DNA from: Rhodospirillales bacterium
GTDB taxonomy: Bacteria > Pseudomonadota > Alphaproteobacteria > ATCC43930 > CGMCC-115725
Direction: 5' to 3'
DNA length: 46,402 nucleotides
Assembly: GCA_028291405.1 (NCBI GenBank)
Contig: JAQGID010000312.1
Location: forward strand, 1 to 46,402
In this document: in pieces, positions 6,553 through 30,114 of the stretch
How the letters are laid out: each line of letters starts with the position of its first letter
Numbering within the stretch: position 1 is the first letter of the stretch
Notes under the pieces: generated by a model
What the model saw: the letters and a program-made list of their open reading frames with translations, nothing else
Told to the model about the DNA's origin: nothing
Database searches by the model: none
Made by a program: the position numbers and the translations under genes

Positions 6553-6794
6553 CGCCGAGCGGGCGAGCCCGGCTCGCCGCCCGCCTCGAACGGCGCGACG
6601 CCGAGCGGCGCAAGGCGCGGCTGGAGATCGCCGTGGATGCGCTGACCGACGATCAGATGCGACGCGCCATCGCGCTCCTGCGACGCTGCGTCGACGACGC
6701 GCCGGATCCATTGACCGCCGAAGAGCGGGCCGAGCTCGAGATTCTCGCCGCGCCGGTCGTCGCGCTGCTCGATGCGACCGATGCGGCGCGCTGA
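6549..6794 (+). CDS. small charged helical protein coupled to DUF5681 gene
   Basis: Starting at the GTG inside GTGA, where the DUF5681 stop is the TGA, this frame encodes 81 residues: MTPSGRARLAARLERRDAER, then KARLEIAVDALTDDQMRRAI and LTAEERAELEILAAPVVALL. It is fully helical, basic in its first third and acidic later. The overlapping start/stop and coherent amino-acid pattern support a real gene; longer readings of this frame upstream run through the DUF5681 gene and are shadows. I recognise no family. By position it is likely a partner of the DUF5681 protein. Confidence 0.5.
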   Translation: MTPSGRARLAARLERRDAERRKARLEIAVDALTDDQMRRAIALLRRCVDDAPDPLTAEERAELEILAAPVVALLDATDAAR

Positions 6795-6957
6795 CGCGAG
6801 CCGGTCGCTCACCGGTAATTGGCGTCGCGCGGCCGCGATTTCGACGCGCTCGCGCCCCGCCGCGTCCATGGCAAATCCCGCGTCCCCGCCCGGTCGCCTC
6901 GCCCGCGGCCGCGTCGCTCGCGAACCCGTTGCTGTCTCATCGATAGCGGCCGCTGCG

Positions 6958-6982
6958 CCTGTAAATCGCCTGTTCTTACAGG
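6958..6982. promoter_or_regulatory. inverted repeat, possible activator site
   Basis: CCTGTAA (6958-6964) and TTACAGG (6976-6982) are perfect inverted 7-mers separated by 11 bases. The element lies about 117-141 bases upstream of the -24/-12 promoter at 7099-7115, a normal place for the enhancer-like site of a sigma-54 activator. It is not an NtrC consensus (TGCACC-type). The dyad is seen; its role is inferred. Confidence 0.35.
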
Positions 6983-7098
6983 CCACGCGCGGCTGCTGCC
7001 GAGGCCGCGGTCAGCCTGCCTGGATTCTGAGCAGCGGCGCCGCGACCGGCCGCCGGCGCGATGCTGGGCCTCGCGTCGATTCGTCTTTTCCCGATTCG

Positions 7099-7115
7099 TG
7101 GCGCATAACTTGCAT
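7099..7115 (+). promoter_or_regulatory. sigma-54 (-24/-12) promoter of the ATP-grasp/alpha-E/Anbu operon
   Basis: TGGCGCATAACTTGCAT matches the sigma-54 consensus TGGCACG-N4-TTGCA: TGGC and TTGCA are exact, and GG and GC are separated by the required 10 bases. Transcription would begin near 7125, leaving 35-50 bases before the GTG 7159 or ATG 7174 start. The other amidoligase-type cluster has a similar element at 22308-22323. Activity would require RpoN and an enhancer-binding protein, neither encoded in this window. Confidence 0.6.
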
Positions 7116-7173
7116 CGTCATCGATAGGCAAGTCGGTCGTTCGAGTCGAGGAGGCGGCGTGCAGGAGCAGGCG

Positions 7174-8601
7174 ATGGCGAGCGTGACCGGCAGCTTCCCG
7201 TTCGACGAGATGGGGGCGGTCGGCGATCCGCGGATGGCCTACGATCTGGTGCGGCAATGGCTGGGCGAGACGCCGGCCGCGGTGCTCGATCTCAAGCGGC
7301 GCGAGGCCGAGCTGCTGTTCCGCCGCATCGGCGTCACCTTCGCCGTCTATACCGACGGCGGCGATCCCGAGCGGCTCATTCCCTTCGACATCATCCCGCG
7401 CATCATCGACGCCAAGGAATGGCAGCGCCTGTCGCTCGGCCTGACGCAGCGCGTCCGCGCCCTCAACGCCTTCATCCGCGACGTCTATCACGAGCGCGAG
7501 ATCCTGCGCGCCGGCAAGATCCCCGAGGCGCTGATCCTCGCGAACGAAGCTTATCGCCCGCAGATGCGCGGGCTGCAGGCGCCGCACGACGTCTATACCC
7601 ACGTCTCCGGCATCGATCTCGTGCGCGTCGGGCCCGACGATTTCTACGTCCTCGAGGACAATTGCCGGACGCCCTCCGGCGTCTCCTACATGCTGGAGAA
7701 CCGCGAGGCGATGATGCGGCTCTTCCCCGAGCTCTTCGCCCGCCACCGCATCGCCCCGGTGGCGCGCTACCCCGAGGAGCTGCTGGCGACGCTGAAGTCG
7801 GTGGCGCCGCGCAACTGCGACGACGAGCCGGTCGTCGCCCTGCTGACGCCGGGCGCCTACAACTCCGCCTATTACGAGCATTCCTTCCTCGCCGACGAGA
7901 TGGGGATCGAGCTCGTCGAGGGCGCCGATCTCGTCGTCGAGGGCGACGTCGTCTACATGCGGACGACCCAGGGACGCCGCCGCGTCGACGTGCTCTACCG
8001 GCGGATCGACGACGACTATCTCGACCCGCTCGCCTTCCGGGCGGATTCGATGCTCGGCACGCCCGGCCTCTTCGGCGCCTATCGCGCCGGGAACGTCACG
8101 CTGGCGAATGCCACCGGCGCCGGCATCGCCGACGACAAATCGGTCTATCCCTACGTCCCGGCGATGATCCGCTTCTACCTCGGCGAGGAGCCGCTGCTCA
8201 GCAACGTGCCGACTTATTGCTGCGGCGAGAGCGACGATCTCGCCTATGTCCTCGCCAACATGGCCGAGCTCGTCGTCAAGGAGGCGCGGGGCTCCGGCGG
8301 CTACGGCATGCTGATCGGGCCGCAGTCGACGATCGCGCAGCGCCAGGAGTTCGCCGCCAAGCTGAATGCGCGGCCCGGCGACTATATCGCGCAGCCGACC
8401 TTGGCGCTCTCGACCTCGCCGACCTTCGTCGCCAGCGGCGTCGCACCGCGCCACGTCGATCTCCGCCCCTTCGTGCTGGTCGGCAAGGAGATCCAGATCG
8501 TCCCCGGCGGCCTCACCCGCGTCGCGCTGCGCGAGGGCTCGCTGGTCGTCAACTCGAGCCAGGGCGGCGGCACCAAGGACACGTGGGTCTTGGAAGAATG
8601 A
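7174..8601 (+). CDS. circularly permuted ATP-grasp protein (stand-alone, apparently active)
   Basis: A 475-residue circularly permuted ATP-grasp enzyme (DUF404/DUF407, COG2308 type). These are predicted amidoligases that form peptide-like bonds with ATP; no substrate is established. Likely active-site elements are intact: E161-D162-N163 in VLEDNCRTPSG, K369 in VVKEARGSGGYG with the glycine-rich loop 373-378, R431 in VDLRPFVLVG, and N460 in VVNSSQGGGTKD. ATG 7174 has AGGAG six bases upstream; GTG 7159 with GAGGAGG is also possible and would add five residues. It is first in an operon with alpha-E and Anbu genes. Compare the fused copy at 25810-28338, where these residues are lost. Confidence 0.9.
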   Translation: MASVTGSFPFDEMGAVGDPRMAYDLVRQWLGETPAAVLDLKRREAELLFRRIGVTFAVYTDGGDPERLIPFDIIPRIIDAKEWQRLSLGLTQRVRALNAFIRDVYHEREILRAGKIPEALILANEAYRPQMRGLQAPHDVYTHVSGIDLVRVGPDDFYVLEDNCRTPSGVSYMLENREAMMRLFPELFARHRIAPVARYPEELLATLKSVAPRNCDDEPVVALLTPGAYNSAYYEHSFLADEMGIELVEGADLVVEGDVVYMRTTQGRRRVDVLYRRIDDDYLDPLAFRADSMLGTPGLFGAYRAGNVTLANATGAGIADDKSVYPYVPAMIRFYLGEEPLLSNVPTYCCGESDDLAYVLANMAELVVKEARGSGGYGMLIGPQSTIAQRQEFAAKLNARPGDYIAQPTLALSTSPTFVASGVAPRHVDLRPFVLVGKEIQIVPGGLTRVALREGSLVVNSSQGGGTKDTWVLEE

Positions 8602-8641: not shown

Positions 8642-8753
8642 CGTCATGCCCGGGCTTGACCCGGGCAACCACGTGTTGCCGCCAACGTCGGTCGCTGGAG
8701 AGACTCAGCCTGTCCCCACCGCGTGGATGGCCGGGTCAAGCCCGGCCATGACG
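8642..8753. repeat. palindromic REP-like intergenic repeat
   Basis: Two 32-base arms, 8642-8673 and 8722-8753, are inverted copies matching at 29 of 32 positions. The first begins CGTCATGCCCGGGCTTGACC and the second ends GGGTCAAGCCCGGCCATGACG minus its first base. Each arm is itself nearly palindromic around GGGCTTGACCCGGGC. This is a widespread type of intergenic repeat in Bradyrhizobium-like genomes. It lies inside an operon between the ATP-grasp and alpha-E genes and could form a large RNA stem affecting message stability or partial termination. Confidence 0.75.
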
Positions 8754-8800
8754 GGGTTGGGAAGCTTGGTGTTCAAAGACTCTCCGACGGACCTCCCGCG

Positions 8801-9745
8801 ATGCTGAGCCGCACCGCCGACAGTCTCTACTGGGTCGCCCGCTACATGGAACGCGCCGAGAACCTGGCGCGCATCCTCCAGGTCGGTCATCGCATGGCGA
8901 GCCTCGCCGGCTCGCTCGGCAATCCCAGCAACGAGTGGAGCTCGACGCTCGTCGCGGCGGGCTGCGAGCCCGGCTTCCTCGCCAAGCACAAGGCGGCGAC
9001 GGCGGCGACGGTGATCGACTATCTGGCGCGCGACCCCGAGAACCCGTCCAGCGTGCTCTCCTGCCTCGAGACGGCGCGGCGCAACGCCCGGGCGGTGCGC
9101 ACCGCGCTCACCGTCGACATGTGGAGCGCGCTCAACGACACCTGGCTGAAGATCCGCAGCTTCGGCTCCGAGTCCTTCGAGCCGGCGCGGGTCGGCGATT
9201 TCCTCGACTGGGTCAAGGAGCGCTCGCAGCTCTTCACCGGCGCCTATGAGACGACGATGCTGCGCAACGATGCGTATCATTTCACCCGGCTCGGCACCTT
9301 CGTCGAGCGCGCCGACAACACCGCCCGCATCCTCGACGTCAAATATCACGTGCTGCTGCCGCAGCACGAAGGCGTCGGCGGCGCGCTCGACTACTACCAG
9401 TGGCAGGCGATCCTCGCGTCGGTCTCGGCGCTGCGCTCCTATCACTGGGTCTATCACGAGCGGCTCAACCCGCGGCTGGTCGCCGAGTTCATGATCCTGC
9501 GCGACGAGATGCCGCGCTCGCTCCTCGCCTGCTTCGAGCAGATCACCGCGCTGCTCGACCTCATCGCCAATGCCGACGGCGGCAAGCGCGGCGAATGCCA
9601 CCGTCTCGCCGGCGAGATCCACGCCCGGCTGCGCTACGGCCAGATCCGCCAGATCATGAATTCCGGCCTGCACGAGTTCCTTACCGAGTTCATCGAGCGC
9701 TCGGGCGTCCTTGGAAATGCCATCGGCAGCCAGTATCTCATCTGA
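8801..9745 (+). CDS. alpha-E domain protein (DUF403)
   Basis: A 314-residue all-helical alpha-E protein (COG2307). It begins MLSRTADSLYWVARYMERAE, the characteristic start with the R-Y-x-E-R-A-E-N pattern, and has a second R/E-rich helix TRLGTFVERADNTARILDVK. Alpha-E proteins occur next to or fused with circularly permuted ATP-grasp domains and are thought to work with them; their biochemical activity is unproven. ATG 8801 is chosen because the family begins there; a longer in-frame reading from 8723 translates the upstream palindromic repeat and is rejected. Anbu follows after 35 bases. Confidence 0.9.
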   Translation: MLSRTADSLYWVARYMERAENLARILQVGHRMASLAGSLGNPSNEWSSTLVAAGCEPGFLAKHKAATAATVIDYLARDPENPSSVLSCLETARRNARAVRTALTVDMWSALNDTWLKIRSFGSESFEPARVGDFLDWVKERSQLFTGAYETTMLRNDAYHFTRLGTFVERADNTARILDVKYHVLLPQHEGVGGALDYYQWQAILASVSALRSYHWVYHERLNPRLVAEFMILRDEMPRSLLACFEQITALLDLIANADGGKRGECHRLAGEIHARLRYGQIRQIMNSGLHEFLTEFIERSGVLGNAIGSQYLI

Positions 9746-9780
9746 ACGTTTGCGATGATGAGGACAGGATCGGTGACCAC

Positions 9781-10536
9781 ATGACCTATTGCGTCGGCTT
9801 ACGCCTCAACGAAGGCCTGGTCATGCTGTCCGACACGCGGACCAACGCTGGCGTCGACAACATCTCGACTTTCTGCAAGATGCACGTCTTCGAGGCGCCG
9901 GGGGACCGGGTCATCACGCTGCTGACCGCCGGCAATTTGGCGCTCTCGCAGTCGGTCGTGACCTTGCTGAAGGAGGGCATCGACAGCGAGCACGGCGTCG
10001 AGACGATGTTCAACGTGCCCAGCATGTTCCGCGCGGCGCAGCTCGTCGGCGCGGCGATCCGGCAGGTCTACAAGATCGACGGCGAGGCGTTGAAGGAGCA
10101 GGATTTCTCGTTCGACGTCTCGATTCTGCTCGGCGGCCAGATCAAGGGCCGCGGCATGCGGCTCTTCCAGATCTACTCGGCCGGCAATTTCATCGAGGCG
10201 ACGAACGACACGCCGTTCCTGCAGATCGGCGAGCACAAATACGGAAAGCCGATCCTGGACCGCGCGGCGCGGGCGGAGACCGAGCTCTACGACGGCGTCA
10301 AGCTCGCGCTGGTCTCGATGGATTCGACGCTGCGCAGCAATCTGCGGGTCGGGTTGCCGATCGATCTCCTGGTCTATCGCCGCGACGCGCTGTGCATCGA
10401 CCTGCGCCGCCGCCTGACCGAGGACGACCCCTATTTCAAGATGATCCGCGAGCGCTGGTCCGAGGCATTGCGCGACGCCTACCGCGCCATGCCCCGGCCG
10501 TCGTGGCCCGAGCTTCAGCCTTCGCCGAAGCCATAG
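9781..10536 (+). CDS. Anbu, proteasome-like N-terminal nucleophile peptidase
   Basis: A 251-residue bacterial proteasome-type protease. The start MTYCVGLRLNEGLVMLSDTR is that of Anbu: removal of Met exposes Thr as the N-terminal nucleophile, with D17 (LSDTRTN) and K32 (STFCKMHVF) as supporting catalytic residues in processed numbering. The remainder fits the family (SFDVSILLGGQIKGRG, RLFQIYSAGNFIEA). Anbu forms ring or lock-washer oligomers related to HslV, but its peptidase substrates are unknown. Its linkage here to ATP-grasp and alpha-E genes is the known conserved association. The gene ends 22 bases inside the convergent RraA-like gene. Confidence 0.92.
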   Translation: MTYCVGLRLNEGLVMLSDTRTNAGVDNISTFCKMHVFEAPGDRVITLLTAGNLALSQSVVTLLKEGIDSEHGVETMFNVPSMFRAAQLVGAAIRQVYKIDGEALKEQDFSFDVSILLGGQIKGRGMRLFQIYSAGNFIEATNDTPFLQIGEHKYGKPILDRAARAETELYDGVKLALVSMDSTLRSNLRVGLPIDLLVYRRDALCIDLRRRLTEDDPYFKMIRERWSEALRDAYRAMPRPSWPELQPSPKP

Positions 10537-22095: not shown

Positions 22096-22307
22096 GACAA
22101 TTCCTGCGTCGGCTCCTTGCGCCACGACGAGGCTAATCGACGGGTGTTAAGCTTCAGGGACGTTTTTTGGGCAGGTGCTTTAAGAAAGCGCAGACTGGCC
22201 GCTCTACCCTGATGCTTCCGATGCATCCGTCGTCGAAACGAGGATGCCGCGCCGCACCTGAACATCGGTTCGTGAAACGGCGCCGGTTAGGCCATGAGCG
22301 CGCCGCG

Positions 22308-22323
22308 TGGCATGATCATTGCG
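22308..22323 (+). promoter_or_regulatory. sigma-54 (-24/-12) promoter of the transglutaminase/ATP-grasp cluster
   Basis: TGGCATGATCATTGCG fits TGGCACG-N4-TTGC: TGGCA, G and TTGC match, and GG and GC are 10 bases apart as required. Start of transcription would be near 22334, giving a 60-base leader before ATG 22396. The rest of the 300-base space 22096-22395 holds no gene, and I found no clear activator site. It parallels the site at 7099-7115 before the related Anbu operon. Confidence 0.6.
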
Positions 22324-22395: not shown

Positions 22396-25300
22396 ATGAC
22401 AATCCACGTCGCGCTGCATCACCGTACCGTCTATCGCTATGACCGGCTGATCTCGCTCGGGCCGCAGACGCTGCGGCTGCGCCCGGCGCCGCATTGCCGG
22501 ACGCCGATCCTCGCCTATTCGCTCTCGGTCCAGCCTAGGGATCATTTCATCAACTGGCAGCAGGATCCCTACTCGAATTACCAGGCGCGGCTCGTCTTCC
22601 CCGAGAAGACCCGCGAACTCGTCATCGAGGTCGATCTCGTCGCCGATCTCGCCGTTACGAACCCGTTCGATTTCTTTCTCGAGCCGAGCGCCGAGAGCTT
22701 TCCATTCCTCTACGATGCCTCGCTCGCCGCCGAAATCGCGCCCTATCGCGAGCCGGCGCCCGCCGGGCCATTGCTCAAGCAGTGGCTGGCGGCGATCGAT
22801 CCCGCGCCGCGCCAAACGACCGAGTTCCTGGTCGACCTCAATCTCCGCCTGCAACGCGACATCGGCTATGTCATCCGCATGGAGCCGGGCGTGCAGGGCT
22901 GCGACGAGACTCTCGGGTTGCGCAAGGGATCCTGCCGCGACACCGCCTGGCTGCTGGTCGAGATCCTGCGCCACCTGGGCCTCGCCGCCCGCTTCGTCTC
23001 CGGCTATCTCATCCAGCTGAAGCCCGACGTGAAACCGCTCACCGGCCCTGAAGGACCGGACAGCGATTTCACGGATCTGCACGCCTGGGCCGAGGTCTAT
23101 CTTCCCGGTGCCGGCTGGATCGGGCTCGACCCGACCTCAGGGCTGCTGGCGGGCGAGGGGCATATTCCGCTAGCCGCGACGGCGACGCCGGCGAGCGCGG
23201 CGCCGATCACCGGCGCGGTCGATCCCTGCGAGGTCGAGTTCGTCCACGAGATGAAGGTGACGCGGATCCGCGAAAGCGCCCGCGTGACCAAGCCTTATTC
23301 CGATGAGCAATGGCAGCGGATCGATCGTCTCGGCCGGCATGTCGACCACGCGATCGAAGCCGCGGGAATGCGGCTGACGATGGGCGGCGAGCCGACTTTC
23401 GTCTCGATCGACGACATGGATGGCGCCGAGTGGAACATCACGGCGCTCGGGCCGGCGAAGCGTCGTCTCGCCGGCGATCTGCTGCGCCGGCTGCAGCGGC
23501 GCTGGGCGCCGGGCGCGCTGCTCCATTACGGCCAGGGGAAATGGTACCCCGGCGAGAACTTGCCGCGCTGGGCGCTCGGCTGCTTCTGGCGCAAGGATGG
23601 CGAGCCGATCTGGCGTGACCCCACGCTGTTCGCCGGCGACAGCGGTCTCGGCACCGCCGGTCTCCTCGATGCCGAGGCCTTCATCGGCGCGCTGGCACGA
23701 CGGCTGCAGATCGATACGTCCTTCGCCGTCGCCGGCTTCGAGAACGCCTGGCACTACCTCGAGCGCGAGCAGCGCCTCCCGGTCGATCTCGACCCCGGCG
23801 CCTCGGATCTACGCGATCCGCAGGAACGCGCCCGGCTGGCGCATGTCCTCGAGCGCGGCCTCGACGAGGCGGTCGGCTACGCCCTGCCGCTGCAGCGCAT
23901 GCGCGGCCGCGACGGCGATCGCTGGATCAGCGCTTGCTGGCCCTTCCGCTCGCCGCGGATGTATCTGCTGCCCGGCGATTCGCCGATGGGGCTGCGCCTG
24001 CCGCTCGATTCGCTGCCGCGTCCCGACGACGAGGACACCAAGGATCCGGAGGTCGATCCCTTCGCGCCGCGCGACGCCTTCCCGGCACGGGACGCGCTCG
24101 CCATCTACTCGTGGCAGGCGGCGTCGGAGCGGCCGTACCAGAGCCAGCAGGGCCCGGCCGCCGACCGCAAGGCGAACGGCGTGCGCTCGCCGCGCCCGGC
24201 CGAGTACAAGCCGCCGACCGTCATTCGCACCGCGCTCTGCGTCGAGCCGCGCGACGGCAAGCTGCATGTCTTCATGCCGCCGGTGGTGCACGCCGAGGAT
24301 TATCTCGAGCTCGTCGCGGCGATCGAGGATACCGCCGCGCGCCTCGCGACCAAAGTGGTGATCGAGGGTTATCCGCCGCCGCGCGATCCGCGCATCCGCA
24401 GCTTCAGCGTCACCCCCGATCCCGGCGTGATCGAGGTCAACATCCATCCGGCGGCAAACTGGGACGAGCTCGTCGCGAATACGACGGTGCTCTACGAGGA
24501 GGCGCGCCAGACGCGGCTCGGCACCGAGAAATTCCTGATCGATGGGCGGCACGTCGGAACCGGCGGCGGCAATCACTTCACGCTGGGCGGCGCTTCCGTC
24601 GAGGAATCGCCGATGCTGCGCCGCCCGGATCTGCTGCGCAGCCTGATCAGCTACTGGCTGAACCACCCGTCGCTTTCCTATCTCTTCTCCGGCCTCTACA
24701 TCGGCCCGACGAGCCAGGCGCCGCGGATCGACGAAGCGCGCAACGACAGCATCGCCGAGCTCGAGCTCGCCTTCGCCCAGATCCCGGATGACGGCATCGT
24801 GCCGCCGTGGCTGATCGATCGCGTGCTGCGCCACATTTTGGTCGACGTCACCGGCAATACGCATCGGACCGAGTTCTGCATCGACAAGCTGTACTCGCCG
24901 GACGGGCCGACCGGCCGGCTCGGCCTCGTCGAGCTGCGCGCCTTCGAGATGCCGCCGCATGCCCGCATGAGCCTGGTGCAGCAGCTGCTGCTGCGCGGCC
25001 TGATCGGCGAGTTCGCGCGGCGCCCCTATCGCAAGAAGCTGATCCGCTGGGGCACGCGGCTGCACGATCGCTTCCTGCTGCCGCATTTCATCCGCCGCGA
25101 CTTCGCCGAGGTCATCGAGGATCTGCGCGTCGCCGGGTTTCCGTTCGAGCTCGACTGGTTCGCGCCGCATTTCGAGTTCCGTTTTCCCGAGATCGGCACG
25201 ATCAGCCACGGCGGCGTCACGCTCGAGCTGCGCCAGGCGCTGGAGCCCTGGCCGGTCTTGGGCGAGGAGCAGGCGGCGTCGGGCACCGTCCGCTATGTCG

Positions 25301-25734
25301 ATGCCTCGCTCGAGCGCATCCAGGTGCTGGTCCGCGAGATCAGCGACGACCGCTACCTCGTCGCCTGCAACGGCGTCCGCCTGCCGCTGCAATCGACGGG
25401 AACGGCCGGGGAGTACGTCGCCGGCCTGCGGTATCGCGCCTGGCAGCCGACAGCGAGCCTGCACCCCCGCATCGGGGTCCACTCGCCGCTCGTCTTCGAC
25501 ATCGTCGACAGCTGGTCCGGGCGTTCGGTGGGCGGCTGCACTTATCACGTCATGCACCCCGGCGGGCGGAACTACGAGACCCTGCCGGTCAACGCCAACG
25601 AAGCGGAGGCGCGGCGCCGCGTCCGATTTCTGCCGAGCGGCCATTCCGGTGGAGCGATGACCGTCGCGCCGGCGCCGATCATCGCCGAGTTCCCTCTGAC
25701 GCTCGATCTGCGGTACGCTGCCCGATTGGGTTAA
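22396..25734 (+). CDS. transglutaminase-like plus DUF2126 protein (1112 aa)
   Basis: A very large protein of the bacterial transglutaminase-DUF2126 type. Residues 1-80 form the N-terminal beta domain (HVALHHRTVYRYDRLISLGP). The transglutaminase-like cysteine protease core has C180 (GSCRDTAWLLVEIL), H229 (DLHAWAEVYLPGAGW) and D245 (GLDPTSG), so the triad is intact. From about residue 300 to the end is DUF2126, including the segment RLTMGGEPTFVSIDD. Such proteins are linked to circularly permuted ATP-grasp genes and are predicted to cleave or transfer amide bonds. GAGG lies eight bases before the ATG. The fused ATP-grasp/alpha-E gene follows after 75 bases. Confidence 0.9.
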   Translation: MTIHVALHHRTVYRYDRLISLGPQTLRLRPAPHCRTPILAYSLSVQPRDHFINWQQDPYSNYQARLVFPEKTRELVIEVDLVADLAVTNPFDFFLEPSAESFPFLYDASLAAEIAPYREPAPAGPLLKQWLAAIDPAPRQTTEFLVDLNLRLQRDIGYVIRMEPGVQGCDETLGLRKGSCRDTAWLLVEILRHLGLAARFVSGYLIQLKPDVKPLTGPEGPDSDFTDLHAWAEVYLPGAGWIGLDPTSGLLAGEGHIPLAATATPASAAPITGAVDPCEVEFVHEMKVTRIRESARVTKPYSDEQWQRIDRLGRHVDHAIEAAGMRLTMGGEPTFVSIDDMDGAEWNITALGPAKRRLAGDLLRRLQRRWAPGALLHYGQGKWYPGENLPRWALGCFWRKDGEPIWRDPTLFAGDSGLGTAGLLDAEAFIGALARRLQIDTSFAVAGFENAWHYLEREQRLPVDLDPGASDLRDPQERARLAHVLERGLDEAVGYALPLQRMRGRDGDRWISACWPFRSPRMYLLPGDSPMGLRLPLDSLPRPDDEDTKDPEVDPFAPRDAFPARDALAIYSWQAASERPYQSQQGPAADRKANGVRSPRPAEYKPPTVIRTALCVEPRDGKLHVFMPPVVHAEDYLELVAAIEDTAARLATKVVIEGYPPPRDPRIRSFSVTPDPGVIEVNIHPAANWDELVANTTVLYEEARQTRLGTEKFLIDGRHVGTGGGNHFTLGGASVEESPMLRRPDLLRSLISYWLNHPSLSYLFSGLYIGPTSQAPRIDEARNDSIAELELAFAQIPDDGIVPPWLIDRVLRHILVDVTGNTHRTEFCIDKLYSPDGPTGRLGLVELRAFEMPPHARMSLVQQLLLRGLIGEFARRPYRKKLIRWGTRLHDRFLLPHFIRRDFAEVIEDLRVAGFPFELDWFAPHFEFRFPEIGTISHGGVTLELRQALEPWPVLGEEQAASGTVRYVDASLERIQVLVREISDDRYLVACNGVRLPLQSTGTAGEYVAGLRYRAWQPTASLHPRIGVHSPLVFDIVDSWSGRSVGGCTYHVMHPGGRNYETLPVNANEAEARRRVRFLPSGHSGGAMTVAPAPIIAEFPLTLDLRYAARLG

Positions 25735-25809: not shown

Positions 25810-28338
25810 ATGACCTCGACGCAGTATTCGCTGTTCGTCGAGGCCGGGTCCGGCGCGCGGCTCGGCGAGTACGACGAGATGGTCAGCGGCGACGGTCGCA
25901 TCCGCCAGCCGTGGCGCGCGCTGATCGGTTCGCTGCAGGCGGTTCCCGAGGGTGTCCTGAGCGAGCGCGTCGAGCGCATCTATCGTCAATACCAGGACAC
26001 CGCGCTGGCCTATAGCGTCGACAACGACCGCCAGAGCACCGAGGTGCGGCGGCCCTTCGACATCATTCCGCTCGTCCTGAGCGAGGACGAGTGGCGCGCG
26101 CTGGAGACTGGACTAGCGCAACGGGCGCGCTTGCTCGACCGTCTGATCGACGACCTCTACGGTGAGCGCCGGGTCATCGTCAATGGGCTCCTGCCGCCGG
26201 CGCTGATCTACGGAAACCCGCGCTTCCTGCGTCCCTGCGCCGGAATTCCGGCGCCGCGGCGCGGTGCACGCCTGCACGCCTACAGCGCCGATCTCCTGCG
26301 TCGCGCTGACGGATCCTGGGCCGTGGTGACGGACCGGACCCAGGCGCCGGCCGGCATCGGTTTCGCGCTGCAGAACCGCGGCATCCTGGCGCGGACGCTG
26401 CCCGAGCTCTTCCGCTCGCAGGCGGTCCGCCGGATCGAGCCGTTCTTCGAGCTGTGGCGCGAGGGTCTCGCCGCCTTGTCGCCGCGGCGCGACGGAGCGC
26501 CGCGCATCGTCGTTCTCACCCCGGGGCCGTTCAACGCCGCGTATTTCGAGCACGTGTACCTGGCGCGGCAGCTCGACGCGACCCTCGTCGAGGGCGCCGA
26601 TCTGACCGTCCGGGACGGCAAGGCCTACGTCAAGACCCTCGGATCGTTGCACCAGGTCGACGTCATCCTGCGCTTCCTCGAGGACGATTATTGCGATCCG
26701 CTCGAGCTGCGCGGCAATTCGGTGCTCGGCGCCGCCGGGCTGCTCCAGGCAGTGCGCGAAGGCAACGTCGTCATCGCGAATGCCTTGGGGGCGAGCGTCG
26801 TCGAGACGCCGGCGCTGCGCGAGTTCCTACCGGCTCTCGCGGAAGCGCTGCTCGGCGAGACGCTCCTTCTGCCATCGGTCGAGAGCAGCTGGCTCGGATC
26901 GCGGCAGGCAATGGCGGACCTGCCCGATCGGCTGAACGACGCGATCATTCGGCCGGCCTATGCGACGGCGCGCGAGGAGCGGTCGTTCCATGCGCTCAAC
27001 CAGGAGGCCGGGCGCAATGCGCTGCTCGAGGAGGTGCGGGCGAGGCCGAGATCCTACGTCGTCGAGCCGCGTCTGATCCGCTCGGTCATGCCGATCTGGA
27101 CGCCGGGCGGAATGTTGCCGCGGCCGTTGACGCTGCGGATCTTTGTCGCCGAGCGTGACGGCAGCTATTTCGCGATGCCGGGCGGTCTGGCGCAAGTTCC
27201 CCATGTTCCGACCAGCGGCATCACCCTGCTCGAGCCGGTCTTCGCCAGCAAGGATTCCTGGATCCTTGCCGGCGACGGCAGCGATGCGACCATGGCGAGC
27301 CGTCCGGCGCACGGCGTGGTCCCGGTCAGCCACGCGCCGGAGGAGCTGCGCAGCCGCAGCGCCGACGATCTCTTCTGGCTCGGCCGCTATACCGAACGGC
27401 TCGACAACGCGGCGCGGATGATGCGCAGCGCCCTGGCACGCACCGTCTTCGATCAGATCGGCCCGGGCCAGCAACAGGAATTGCACATCCTGATCCGCAT
27501 CCTCTCCGAGGTCGGCCTCGTCGATCCGCAGACGGCGGAGTGGCTGCCTGATGCGACGGCGCTGCGCCGCGCGATCGTGCAGGCGAGCTCGCAGGACAAG
27601 AAGCTGAAGAGCGTCTTCCGCGCGATCCAGCGAATCGCCCAGTCGCTGCGCGACCGCCTGTCCAACGACATGTGGCAGGTCGTCGTCGTCCTGATGCGAG
27701 GGGCGCAGGAGCGGCTCGACGGCGAAACGCGCGACGCCGACGGACTCATCGCGGCATTGGATCACCTGGTCGGCGTCATCGCCGCCTTCGGCGGGATGGC
27801 GTCGGAAAACATGACGCGCGGCACGGGATGGCGCTTCGTCGACATCGGCCGCCGGATCGAGCGCGGCGCCTACGGCGTCGCGGTGCTGCGCAACATCCTG
27901 CTGGCGCGCGGTGCCGAGCTCGAGATCGGGCTCGGCCTCGCCCTCGAGCTGTTCGACAGCTCGATCACCTATCGTTCGCGCTACCTTTCGGCGGTGCAGC
28001 TCGATCCGGTAATCGAGCTGGTCCTGGCGGACGAAAGCAATCCGAGAGGCCTCGTCTACCAGCTCCTGATGCTCGTCGATCATCTCGGAGCCCTCGTCGC
28101 CGCGCTCGATCGCGATTCGAAGCCGGCAGAGCAGGCCCTCGTCGACATCGCGGCGCAAACCCTCGGTCAGGTCAGCGCGCTGACGCAGATCGGCGATCAC
28201 GGCGAGATGAGCCTGCGCCGCGTCGTCGACCGGCTCGATTTTACCCGCGATCGGCTGCACCATTTGTCCGACGCCATCACCCACGCCTATTTCTCGCAGG
28301 TTCAGATGCCGCATGCCGTCGGCTACGAGGGGATCTGA
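25810..28338 (+). CDS. fused ATP-grasp (DUF404/407, degenerate) and alpha-E (DUF403) protein
   Basis: An 842-residue fusion. Residues 1-490 match the circularly permuted ATP-grasp protein at 7174-8601; from about 515 an alpha-E domain follows (RSRSADDLFWLGRYTERLDN). The ATP-grasp half lacks its catalytic signature: EDN of the other copy (161-163) is TDR here (174-176), the Lys plus glycine loop VVKEARGSGGYG is IIRPAYATAREE near 379-390, and the final NSSQGGGTKD is LEPVFASKD. Folding residues such as VVLTPGPFNAAYFEHVYLA are kept. It may be a non-catalytic partner. No clear ribosome-binding site precedes the ATG; translation may be coupled. The next gene starts one base after its stop. Confidence 0.88.
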   Translation: MTSTQYSLFVEAGSGARLGEYDEMVSGDGRIRQPWRALIGSLQAVPEGVLSERVERIYRQYQDTALAYSVDNDRQSTEVRRPFDIIPLVLSEDEWRALETGLAQRARLLDRLIDDLYGERRVIVNGLLPPALIYGNPRFLRPCAGIPAPRRGARLHAYSADLLRRADGSWAVVTDRTQAPAGIGFALQNRGILARTLPELFRSQAVRRIEPFFELWREGLAALSPRRDGAPRIVVLTPGPFNAAYFEHVYLARQLDATLVEGADLTVRDGKAYVKTLGSLHQVDVILRFLEDDYCDPLELRGNSVLGAAGLLQAVREGNVVIANALGASVVETPALREFLPALAEALLGETLLLPSVESSWLGSRQAMADLPDRLNDAIIRPAYATAREERSFHALNQEAGRNALLEEVRARPRSYVVEPRLIRSVMPIWTPGGMLPRPLTLRIFVAERDGSYFAMPGGLAQVPHVPTSGITLLEPVFASKDSWILAGDGSDATMASRPAHGVVPVSHAPEELRSRSADDLFWLGRYTERLDNAARMMRSALARTVFDQIGPGQQQELHILIRILSEVGLVDPQTAEWLPDATALRRAIVQASSQDKKLKSVFRAIQRIAQSLRDRLSNDMWQVVVVLMRGAQERLDGETRDADGLIAALDHLVGVIAAFGGMASENMTRGTGWRFVDIGRRIERGAYGVAVLRNILLARGAELEIGLGLALELFDSSITYRSRYLSAVQLDPVIELVLADESNPRGLVYQLLMLVDHLGALVAALDRDSKPAEQALVDIAAQTLGQVSALTQIGDHGEMSLRRVVDRLDFTRDRLHHLSDAITHAYFSQVQMPHAVGYEGI

Positions 28339-28339
28339 C

Positions 28340-29218
28340 GTGCGATACGCGGTGCAGCATCGATCGAGCTTCGACTATCAGGACACCATCGATCTCTCCT
28401 ACCACGTGCTGCATCTGACGCCGCGCAGCCTGCCGTGGCAGCGGGTCATCGAGACGCGCATCCGGACGACGCCGGGAACGCCGCCGATCATCGACAGCGT
28501 CGATTACTTCGGCAACGGCAGAAGCTTCCTGTCCCTGGCGGAGCCGCACGCGAGGTTCGTCGTCGACATGACGGCGCGAGTCGAGGTCACCGCCCGCGAA
28601 CCGGTGCGTGCCGCCGCGACGCCGCCCTGGGAAAGCGTGCGGGACGCGCTCGACCGCCCCGAGCTGCCGGCCGACATCGAGGCAGCTGAGTTCGTCGCGG
28701 CCTCGCCGCTGATCCCCGGCGGCGCCGAATTCGCCGCTTACGCCGCCCCGACGTTCACGCCGGGACGGCCGATCCTGGAGGCTGCCCTCGATCTCACCAG
28801 GCGCATCCATCGCGAGTTCACGTTCGACACCGAGGCGACAGAGGTGACGACGCCGCTCTCCGAGATCCTGGTGAAGCGCCGCGGCGTCTGTCAGGACTTC
28901 GCCCATACCGAAGTCGCGGCGCTGCGCGCGATGGGGCTCGCGGCGCGTTATGTCAGCGGCTATATCCGGACCTATGCGGCGCATGGCAAGGCGCGGCGGG
29001 TCGGGGCCGACGCCTCGCACGCCTGGGCGTCGGTCTATTGTCCAGGCAGCGGCTGGATCGATCTCGACCCGACGAACAACATGGTCGTCGGGCAGGAGCA
29101 CATCACCCTCGCCTGGGGACGCGACTACGGCGACGTCAGCCCGGTGCGCGGCGTCATTCTCGGCAGTGGCGATCACCGGCTGGCGGTCAGCGTCGACGTG
29201 GAGCCGCTCGACGATTAG
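28340..29218 (+). CDS. transglutaminase-like cysteine protease (cluster member)
   Basis: A 292-residue protein starting at GTG 28340, one base after the preceding stop and with GAGGGG eight bases upstream. The N-terminal beta domain begins MRYAVQHRSSFDYQDTIDLS. The triad is C184 (KRRGVCQDFAHTEVAALRAM), H227 (DASHAWASVYCPGSGW) and D243 (DLDPTNN). An upstream ATG inside the previous gene (28313) is rejected. These proteins probably hydrolyse or transfer isopeptide bonds, not crosslink proteins. It is the third gene of the cluster and ends two bases from a convergent relative, the third transglutaminase in the region. Confidence 0.88.
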   Translation: MRYAVQHRSSFDYQDTIDLSYHVLHLTPRSLPWQRVIETRIRTTPGTPPIIDSVDYFGNGRSFLSLAEPHARFVVDMTARVEVTAREPVRAAATPPWESVRDALDRPELPADIEAAEFVAASPLIPGGAEFAAYAAPTFTPGRPILEAALDLTRRIHREFTFDTEATEVTTPLSEILVKRRGVCQDFAHTEVAALRAMGLAARYVSGYIRTYAAHGKARRVGADASHAWASVYCPGSGWIDLDPTNNMVVGQEHITLAWGRDYGDVSPVRGVILGSGDHRLAVSVDVEPLDD

Positions 29219-29220
29219 GG

Positions 29221-30114
29221 CTACAGCGCGCCGTCGGGCTGGGCGACAACCTCGACTCCGACGGTCATGCCGAGGAACGAGCCGGTCAGGCCGGTGAAGG
29301 TGCCGGCCAGCGGGATCGCCTGCGAGGGATCGCGCGCGACGCCGACGCGGATCAAATTCTTGCCGCCGACCAGCGCATTCGCCGGATCGAATTCGACCCA
29401 TCCCGCGCCGGGAAGATAGATCTGTACCCAGGCATGGCTCTCGCCGGTGCCGACGATGGTCTCGCTGCCGCCGCCGATCAGCTTTTCGTCGTAGAGATAA
29501 CCGGTGACGAAACGCGCCGCGAAGCCGAGGCTGCGGGCCGCTTCCATCATGAAGAGAGCGAAGTCGCGGCAGCTGCCGGACCGCAAATCATAGGTCAGGA
29601 CCGGATCCTGTGTGCCCATCTCGAACCGGTAGTTGTAGGCGAACTGCTGCCGGATCGCCCGCGTCATGGCGATCAGGATGCCCATGGTGTTGCGGTCCGG
29701 CCCGGCGTCGACGAACTGCCGCGCCCAGAGGCCGACCTTGTGATCGGGGTCGGGGTAATGGCGCTCTGCCGTGCGGCCGAGATCCGCGACCTCCGCCGCC
29801 GAATAGCTGAAGGGGTAACGCGCCGCGTAGGGCTCGATCTCGACCTGGCGCAGGGCGAGCGGATAATGCACGGCGCGGAACGACGAGACGACGGTCAGCT
29901 CCGACGCCATCTCATGGAAGTGGGCGATTGCGATCGAGTTTCCGAAGACATCGTGCAGCCAACGGATCGTCGCGCTCGGGGTGATCGAGAGCGAGGTGTC
30001 GAGCAAGCGCAGATCGTGGCTGTCGCGCGGTCGGAACATCAGACGGTGCTCGCCGAACTCGACGGGGCTCGCGTACCGGTAGACCGTCCGGTGAGTGACT
30101 GTCAGGATCGTCAT
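29221..30114 (-). CDS. transglutaminase-like cysteine protease (convergent copy)
   Basis: A 297-residue protein with the same two-part layout: TVTHRTVYRYASPVEFGEHR at the N-terminus, C182 in LRSGSCRDFALFMMEAARSL, H227 in GESHAWVQIYLPGAGW and D243 in EFDPANA. It is transcribed toward the cluster on the other strand, with stops two bases apart. I saw no sigma-54-type element upstream of it (30115-30315). It is clearly a homologue of the other two cysteine proteases but divergent in sequence, so the three probably have different roles or substrates. Confidence 0.88.
   Translation of the reverse strand: MTILTVTHRTVYRYASPVEFGEHRLMFRPRDSHDLRLLDTSLSITPSATIRWLHDVFGNSIAIAHFHEMASELTVVSSFRAVHYPLALRQVEIEPYAARYPFSYSAAEVADLGRTAERHYPDPDHKVGLWARQFVDAGPDRNTMGILIAMTRAIRQQFAYNYRFEMGTQDPVLTYDLRSGSCRDFALFMMEAARSLGFAARFVTGYLYDEKLIGGGSETIVGTGESHAWVQIYLPGAGWVEFDPANALVGGKNLIRVGVARDPSQAIPLAGTFTGLTGSFLGMTVGVEVVAQPDGAL

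Follow-up and report, generated by a model that had tools for sequence, protein, structure and literature searches.

What controls the expression of Anbu, a proteasome-like peptidase, and which promoter is used for it in Alphaproteobacteria? To our knowledge, no substrate of Anbu is known. As far as the accessible part of one report goes, several groups observed no peptidase activity of Anbu on standard substrates (PMC6376114). We investigated an Anbu operon in a stretch of 46,402 nucleotides, hereafter called the window, from a draft genome of 6.48 Mb (contig C342). The plus strand encodes a circularly permuted ATP-grasp type 2 protein (7159 to 8601; PF14403, 5.8e-167, and PF04174), an alpha-E protein (8795 to 9745, its first in-frame ATG probably at 8801; PF04168, 8.7e-102) and Anbu (9766 to 10536, its ATG probably at 9781, where the protein would begin MTYCVG; PF00227, 2.4e-6), in this order and all with open frames. 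Relatives of the Anbu protein are up to 76% identical. A Shine-Dalgarno sequence, GGAGG (7150 to 7154), precedes the GTG at 7159, and AGGAG (7163 to 7167) precedes an ATG at 7174 that could also serve as the start of the ATP-grasp gene. The transglutaminase gene of the usual four-gene form is missing between the alpha-E gene and Anbu; it is found in this position in several relatives of the window's family and is absent from the Nitrospirillum loci.

Upstream of the ATP-grasp gene, TGGCGCATAACTTGCA at 7099 to 7114 on the plus strand has the layout of a sigma-54 -24/-12 box. As the earlier note had read it, this is an exact TGGC-N7-TTGCA, with T at 7099, GG at 7100 and 7101, ten intervening bases and GC at 7112 and 7113. 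It is the sole zero-mismatch occurrence of that pattern on either strand of the 46,402-nt window. The end of the box is separated by 44 bases from the GTG and by 59 from the ATG at 7174, both within the 35 to 75 bases claimed previously. Judging from sigma-54 promoter geometry, transcription would start about 24 bases past the GG, near 7125 on the plus strand. When the 369-bp stretch from 6790 to 7158 was shuffled with its dinucleotides preserved, TGGC-N7-TTGC[AT] appeared on the sense strand in 8 of 5,000 shuffles. Across the whole genome, this pattern was not in excess (104 occurrences versus 107 for the reversed pattern). The box at 7099 is thus weak evidence when taken alone, a caution that had already been voiced, and it is comparative evidence that carries the sigma-54 claim.

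From each of 169 loci, the 400 bp preceding codon 15 of the ATP-grasp gene were compared; the set comprised 79 named loci (80 minus L069, which has no upstream sequence), 89 loci from across the phylum and the window. Not all of these genes belong to Anbu operons, since Anbu was present at 61 of the 80 named loci and 72 of the 89 phylum loci were in genomes with Anbu. TGGC-N7-TTGC was found upstream in 47 of the 169 loci, a number that includes non-independent relatives and possibly overlapping genome sets and should not be read as that many independent species, compared to a shuffle mean of 2.05 (maximum, 7). The antisense strand of the same regions had the pattern in 4 cases, and spacers of N5, N6 and N8 gave 2, 1 and 3 occurrences, respectively, indicating that the enrichment is specific to the spacing. 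Ten close orthologues with identities of 72% or more were found in the window's family, and 8 of them carried the box, located between -47 and -106 relative to codon 15. The promoters of the other two were unreadable, one because of a disrupted start and one because of a contig edge, so that all 8 readable promoters have the box. The upstream regions of these eight are otherwise unalignable with that of the window (34 to 47% identity; flanking columns, about 4/9), and two consensus bases outside the search pattern, C at box position 6 and G at position 7, were kept in 7/9 and 8/9 sequences, respectively.

Across families, conservation of the box is patchy. The box was found in none of 4 more distant homologues from the window's own family (about 53% identity) and in none of 4 genomes of f2, a sister family in the same order (L213 to L216), one of which (G039) was tested and has sigma-54. 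Other families had it frequently (f59, 9/10; f61, 7/8; f88, 4/7), occasionally (f24, 2/12; f111, 2/8) or not at all (f14, 0/6; f60, 0/5; f62, 0/5). Conservation of the -24/-12 element in related Anbu operons, proposed earlier as a check, was therefore confirmed for the close relatives and for the 47 loci, but not for f2, f14, f60 and f62. Genomes bearing sigma-54 had the box at 28 of 69 loci and those without it at 1 of 11, a weak association (one-sided Fisher P = 0.04). In one genome in which the sigma-54 DNA-binding domain was not found (G175), locus L190 has a box, TGGCGTGATCATTGCC, together with a perfect dyad, TGCCTAATATTTAGGCA, which suggests either a relic or a missed gene. We also observed a variant box, TGGCACG-N4-TTGTA, with GT for GC at -12, conserved at -64 in Ancylobacter and similar loci (L096, L097, L099, L107, L109, L110, L111 and L119), mostly with an NtrC-like dyad about 70 bp upstream.

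These data bear on the possibility that the box at 7099 is a chance match and that the operon is transcribed from a different, housekeeping promoter. The genome-wide counts and the many families without the box are what this explanation has in its favor. It is nevertheless highly improbable, given the spacing-specific enrichment, the retention of the box in every readable close orthologue amid unalignable DNA and its co-occurrence with the dyad described below. Moreover, a sigma-70 promoter had been raised as the alternative, and a consensus scan of 6790 to 7170 found no sigma-70-like site. Comparative evidence thus supports the earlier claim that a sigma-54-type promoter stands ahead of the Anbu operon.

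Sigma-54 promoters can be activated by NtrC from upstream sites, and the NtrC site of E. coli has a 17-bp form. We found a candidate NtrC-type activator dyad, TGCCTGGATTCTGAGCA, at 7017 to 7033, 65 bp before the box. It scored 10.4 with a matrix made from six glnB upstream dyads of relatives, in which no Anbu promoter or urtA site was included; TGCCTATTTTTTAGGCA, TGCCCAATTTTTGGGCA and TGCACAATATTTGTGCA are glnB upstream dyads of relatives. Scores of at least 10.4 were reached at only two of 46,386 window positions, 7017 to 7033 and 22176 to 22192, each located before one sigma-54 box. Among 3,000 dinucleotide shuffles of the 200-bp region, 11 matched the score at 7017. This dyad is degenerate, with 10.4 compared to 20.8 to 25.4 for the training sites, and among eight close relatives an NtrC-like dyad was strong in 3, degenerate in 2 and absent in 3.

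The same kind of dyad was enriched, at a single spacing, in the 69 box-bearing upstream regions, from which L034 to L037 and L208 had been excluded as duplicates or for a broken start. GCC-N9-GGC occurred in 38 of the 69, versus 9.3 in shuffled sequences and 13 to 21 for other spacings, and TGCC-N9-GGCA occurred in 11, versus 0.3 in shuffled sequences and 0 to 2 for other spacings. The full form, exemplified by TGCCTAAAAAATAGGCA, has a GC-N11-GC frame, and such a frame is described for NtrC of Pseudomonas stutzeri in the accessible part of one report (PMC8443478). As a positive control, we used the upstream regions of PII genes from 12 genomes; 10 of 16 readable regions had a strong box, and several of them had the same dyad (in this survey, the start was not found for L243). 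Two known site types did not qualify as the general site. The E. coli-type GCAC-N7-GTGC was present in 2 of the 69 regions (L154 and L162; shuffle mean, 0.4), which indicates that most Alphaproteobacterial sites have a different inner sequence, and the NifA site TGT-N10-ACA was also present in 2, at the level of shuffled sequences (2.3). A further dyad, TCGGC-N6-GCCGA, was observed in 13 of the 69 regions, 180 to 254 bp upstream, with 12 of these 13 in two similar groups of loci.

The earlier note had placed the activator site elsewhere, at a perfect inverted repeat at 6958 to 6982. This repeat does exist and is even slightly longer, with 8-bp arms (GCCTGTAA-N11-TTACAGGC, 6957 to 6983), and about 117 bp separate it from the box. 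As a shared activator site, CTGTAA-N11-TTACAG was rejected, since among the 69 box-bearing regions it was found in the window alone; its recurrence in related operons, which had been proposed as a check, was thus not observed, and the repeat is probably not the activator site.

We also searched the draft genome for the required regulators. A profile search identified a sigma-54 gene (PF00309, 4.1e-18) and an ntrC gene (TIGR01818, 719 bits versus a cut-off of 558.6) that adjoins genes for an NtrB-like kinase and NtrX. The NtrC frame contains the GAFTGA motif; NtrC proteins of Caulobacter and Rhodobacter are described as being without it in the accessible part of one report (PMC10274813). Four strong sigma-54 activator domains are encoded in the genome, and a real sigma-54 promoter could accordingly answer to another enhancer-binding protein, either NtrX or one of the two further activators, and to a signal other than nitrogen, with the striking repeat at 6957 possibly being its site. 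The absence of an NtrC-like dyad in 3 of the 8 close relatives would fit such an arrangement. We consider it quite unlikely, since the repeat is shared with none of the other box-bearing regions and since the dyads accompanying the Anbu boxes match those at glnB and urtA of the relatives.

That match was examined with a composite pattern, TGCY-N9-RGCA followed after 50 to 80 bases by TGGC-N7-WTGCW, in 61 genomes. It gave 48 matches, and the reversed control gave 15. In the genome of the window, the single match (reversed control, 0) was 7017 to 7114, which is not independent evidence, since the pattern was designed after this site was known. Among the 30 loci listed of the 48 matches, 7 precede urtA (four of these calls being above the NCBIfam cut-off, one a fragment below it and two made by eye), 4 precede PII genes, 2 precede an ABC permease gene and 2, including that of the window, precede ATP-grasp genes of Anbu operons; the remainder are chance-like. 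Nine of these 30 listed loci had dyad scores of at least 16, and all nine were of the urtA, PII, ABC permease or Anbu operon kinds. At one locus (L309, G018:C36), a single dyad lies between boxes on both strands, and the reverse box has no frame of at least 80 amino acids downstream in the 260 bases scanned. The glnB and urtA promoters of the window's family resemble the Anbu promoter in having a -24/-12 box and a 17-bp TGC-N11-GCA dyad, but their boxes often end in ATGC instead of TTGC and their dyads are mostly closer to a perfect palindrome.

The second high-scoring dyad in the window, TGCTTTAAGAAAGCGCA at 22176 to 22192 (score, 10.9, matched by 28 of 3,000 dinucleotide shuffles of the 200-bp region), is upstream of a second sigma-54-type box, TGGCATGATCATTGCG, at 22308 to 22323 on the plus strand, which has one mismatch to the pattern and an intact GG-N10-GC. 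Boxes of this type precede 17 of 30 orthologous genes examined, that of the window included. The downstream cluster, also on the plus strand, starts with a gene for a protein with transglutaminase-like and DUF2126 amidoligase parts (22396 to 25734; PF09899, PF08379 and PF01841), continues with an ATP-grasp/alpha-E fusion of 842 amino acids (25810 to 28338; PF14403 and PF04168) and further contains a transglutaminase-like protein (28313 to 29218; PF01841 and PF08379). A further transglutaminase-like gene (29221 to 30114, minus strand) faces the cluster. The weight previously given to the site at 22308 was thus well placed, since the genes behind it form a second ATP-grasp/alpha-E/transglutaminase cluster and an NtrC-like dyad of its own accompanies it. 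In Burkholderia cenocepacia, I35_5080-83 resembles this cluster in having ATP-grasp (DUF404/407), alpha-E (DUF403) and transglutaminase genes, whereas ATP-grasp and alpha-E are fused in the window. The accessible part of one report includes I35_5080-83 among the targets shared by NtrC and sigma-54 and does not name Anbu for it (PMC5491218).

Nitrogen control of Anbu is already known in outline from Pseudomonas putida, as described in the accessible parts of two reports. The PP_2688-PP_2685 operon is of the same type, with an ATP-grasp gene, two genes in between and a proteasome beta/Anbu gene, and it responds to nitrogen limitation (PMC8050072, PMC7801951). Its end genes were upregulated on nitrate versus ammonium (log2 values of 3.99 and 4.44), and a reporter of the PP_2688 promoter, which serves as a nitrogen sensor, was induced 3.7-fold on nitrogen depletion, with no response of the PP_2685 promoter (PMC8050072). 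NtrB/NtrC was named as the putative regulator; however, PP_2686 to PP_2688 were still induced 14- to 20-fold in one data set from an rpoN mutant, similarly to the wild type, as was urtA, which argues against strict sigma-54 dependence in that organism (PMC7801951). P. putida is a Gammaproteobacterium and has the transglutaminase gene, PP_2686, that the operon of the window lacks (PMC8050072, PMC7801951). In Bradyrhizobium DOA9, the available part of a list of RpoN boxes includes one before an ATP-grasp domain gene, possibly that of an Anbu operon; this box differs in sequence and position (TGGCATACCACATGC at -247; PMC13207237). The nitrogen signal suggested in the earlier note is thus likely, considering the NtrC-type dyad and the induction in P. 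putida, but it is not a new clue, since it is already in print (PMC8050072, PMC7801951). As far as the open-licence literature shows, what appears to be new is the NtrC-type dyad and the conservation, at the level of individual sites, in Alphaproteobacteria.

On the basis of the box, the dyad, their conservation in relatives and the genes for sigma-54, an NtrB-like kinase, NtrC and NtrX, we conclude that the ATP-grasp/alpha-E/Anbu operon is very probably a member of the Ntr regulon, with a sigma-54 promoter under NtrC. Nitrogen shortage would act via the PII/NtrB pathway to yield phosphorylated NtrC, which would bind the 17-bp dyad at 7017 to 7033, probably aided by weaker sites. NtrC would then loop to sigma-54 RNA polymerase parked on 7099 to 7114 and open the promoter through ATP hydrolysis, so that transcription would proceed from about 7125 through ATP-grasp, alpha-E and Anbu as a single transcript. 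The second cluster, beginning at 22396, would be wired likewise.

One feature inside the operon could interfere with such a transcript. Between the ATP-grasp and alpha-E genes lies a long imperfect palindrome (8642 to 8753, 73% self-complementary over 112 nt). It is a dispersed repeat, with related pieces in L085, L112, L117, L121, L302 and L304, and it may attenuate the distal genes. An ancestral promoter could be decaying here as a relic, with the palindrome uncoupling alpha-E and Anbu. The degenerate dyad at 7017 and the missing transglutaminase gene would fit such decay, as would a genome of the same genus (G001) with no match to the Anbu or ATP-grasp protein. Still, the box at 7099 is intact, open frames are retained in all three genes and the window contains a second, similarly wired cluster, making decay unlikely.

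Ntr control of both clusters within one genome would point to one shared pathway. It is conceivable, though doubtful, that Anbu, ATP-grasp/alpha-E and the DUF2126/fusion cluster belong to a single, ancient module of the Ntr regulon in nitrogen-starved Proteobacteria, a module that makes and breaks amide bonds for nitrogen storage or salvage; Anbu might, for instance, hydrolyse a peptide or conjugate rich in glutamine or glutamate. The second ATP-grasp/alpha-E/transglutaminase cluster would thus be worth studying jointly with the Anbu operon. Membership in the Ntr regulon would extend the nitrogen behaviour seen in P. putida to a distant bacterial group and, for Alphaproteobacteria, would provide a condition, nitrogen starvation, under which the substrate of Anbu could be sought.
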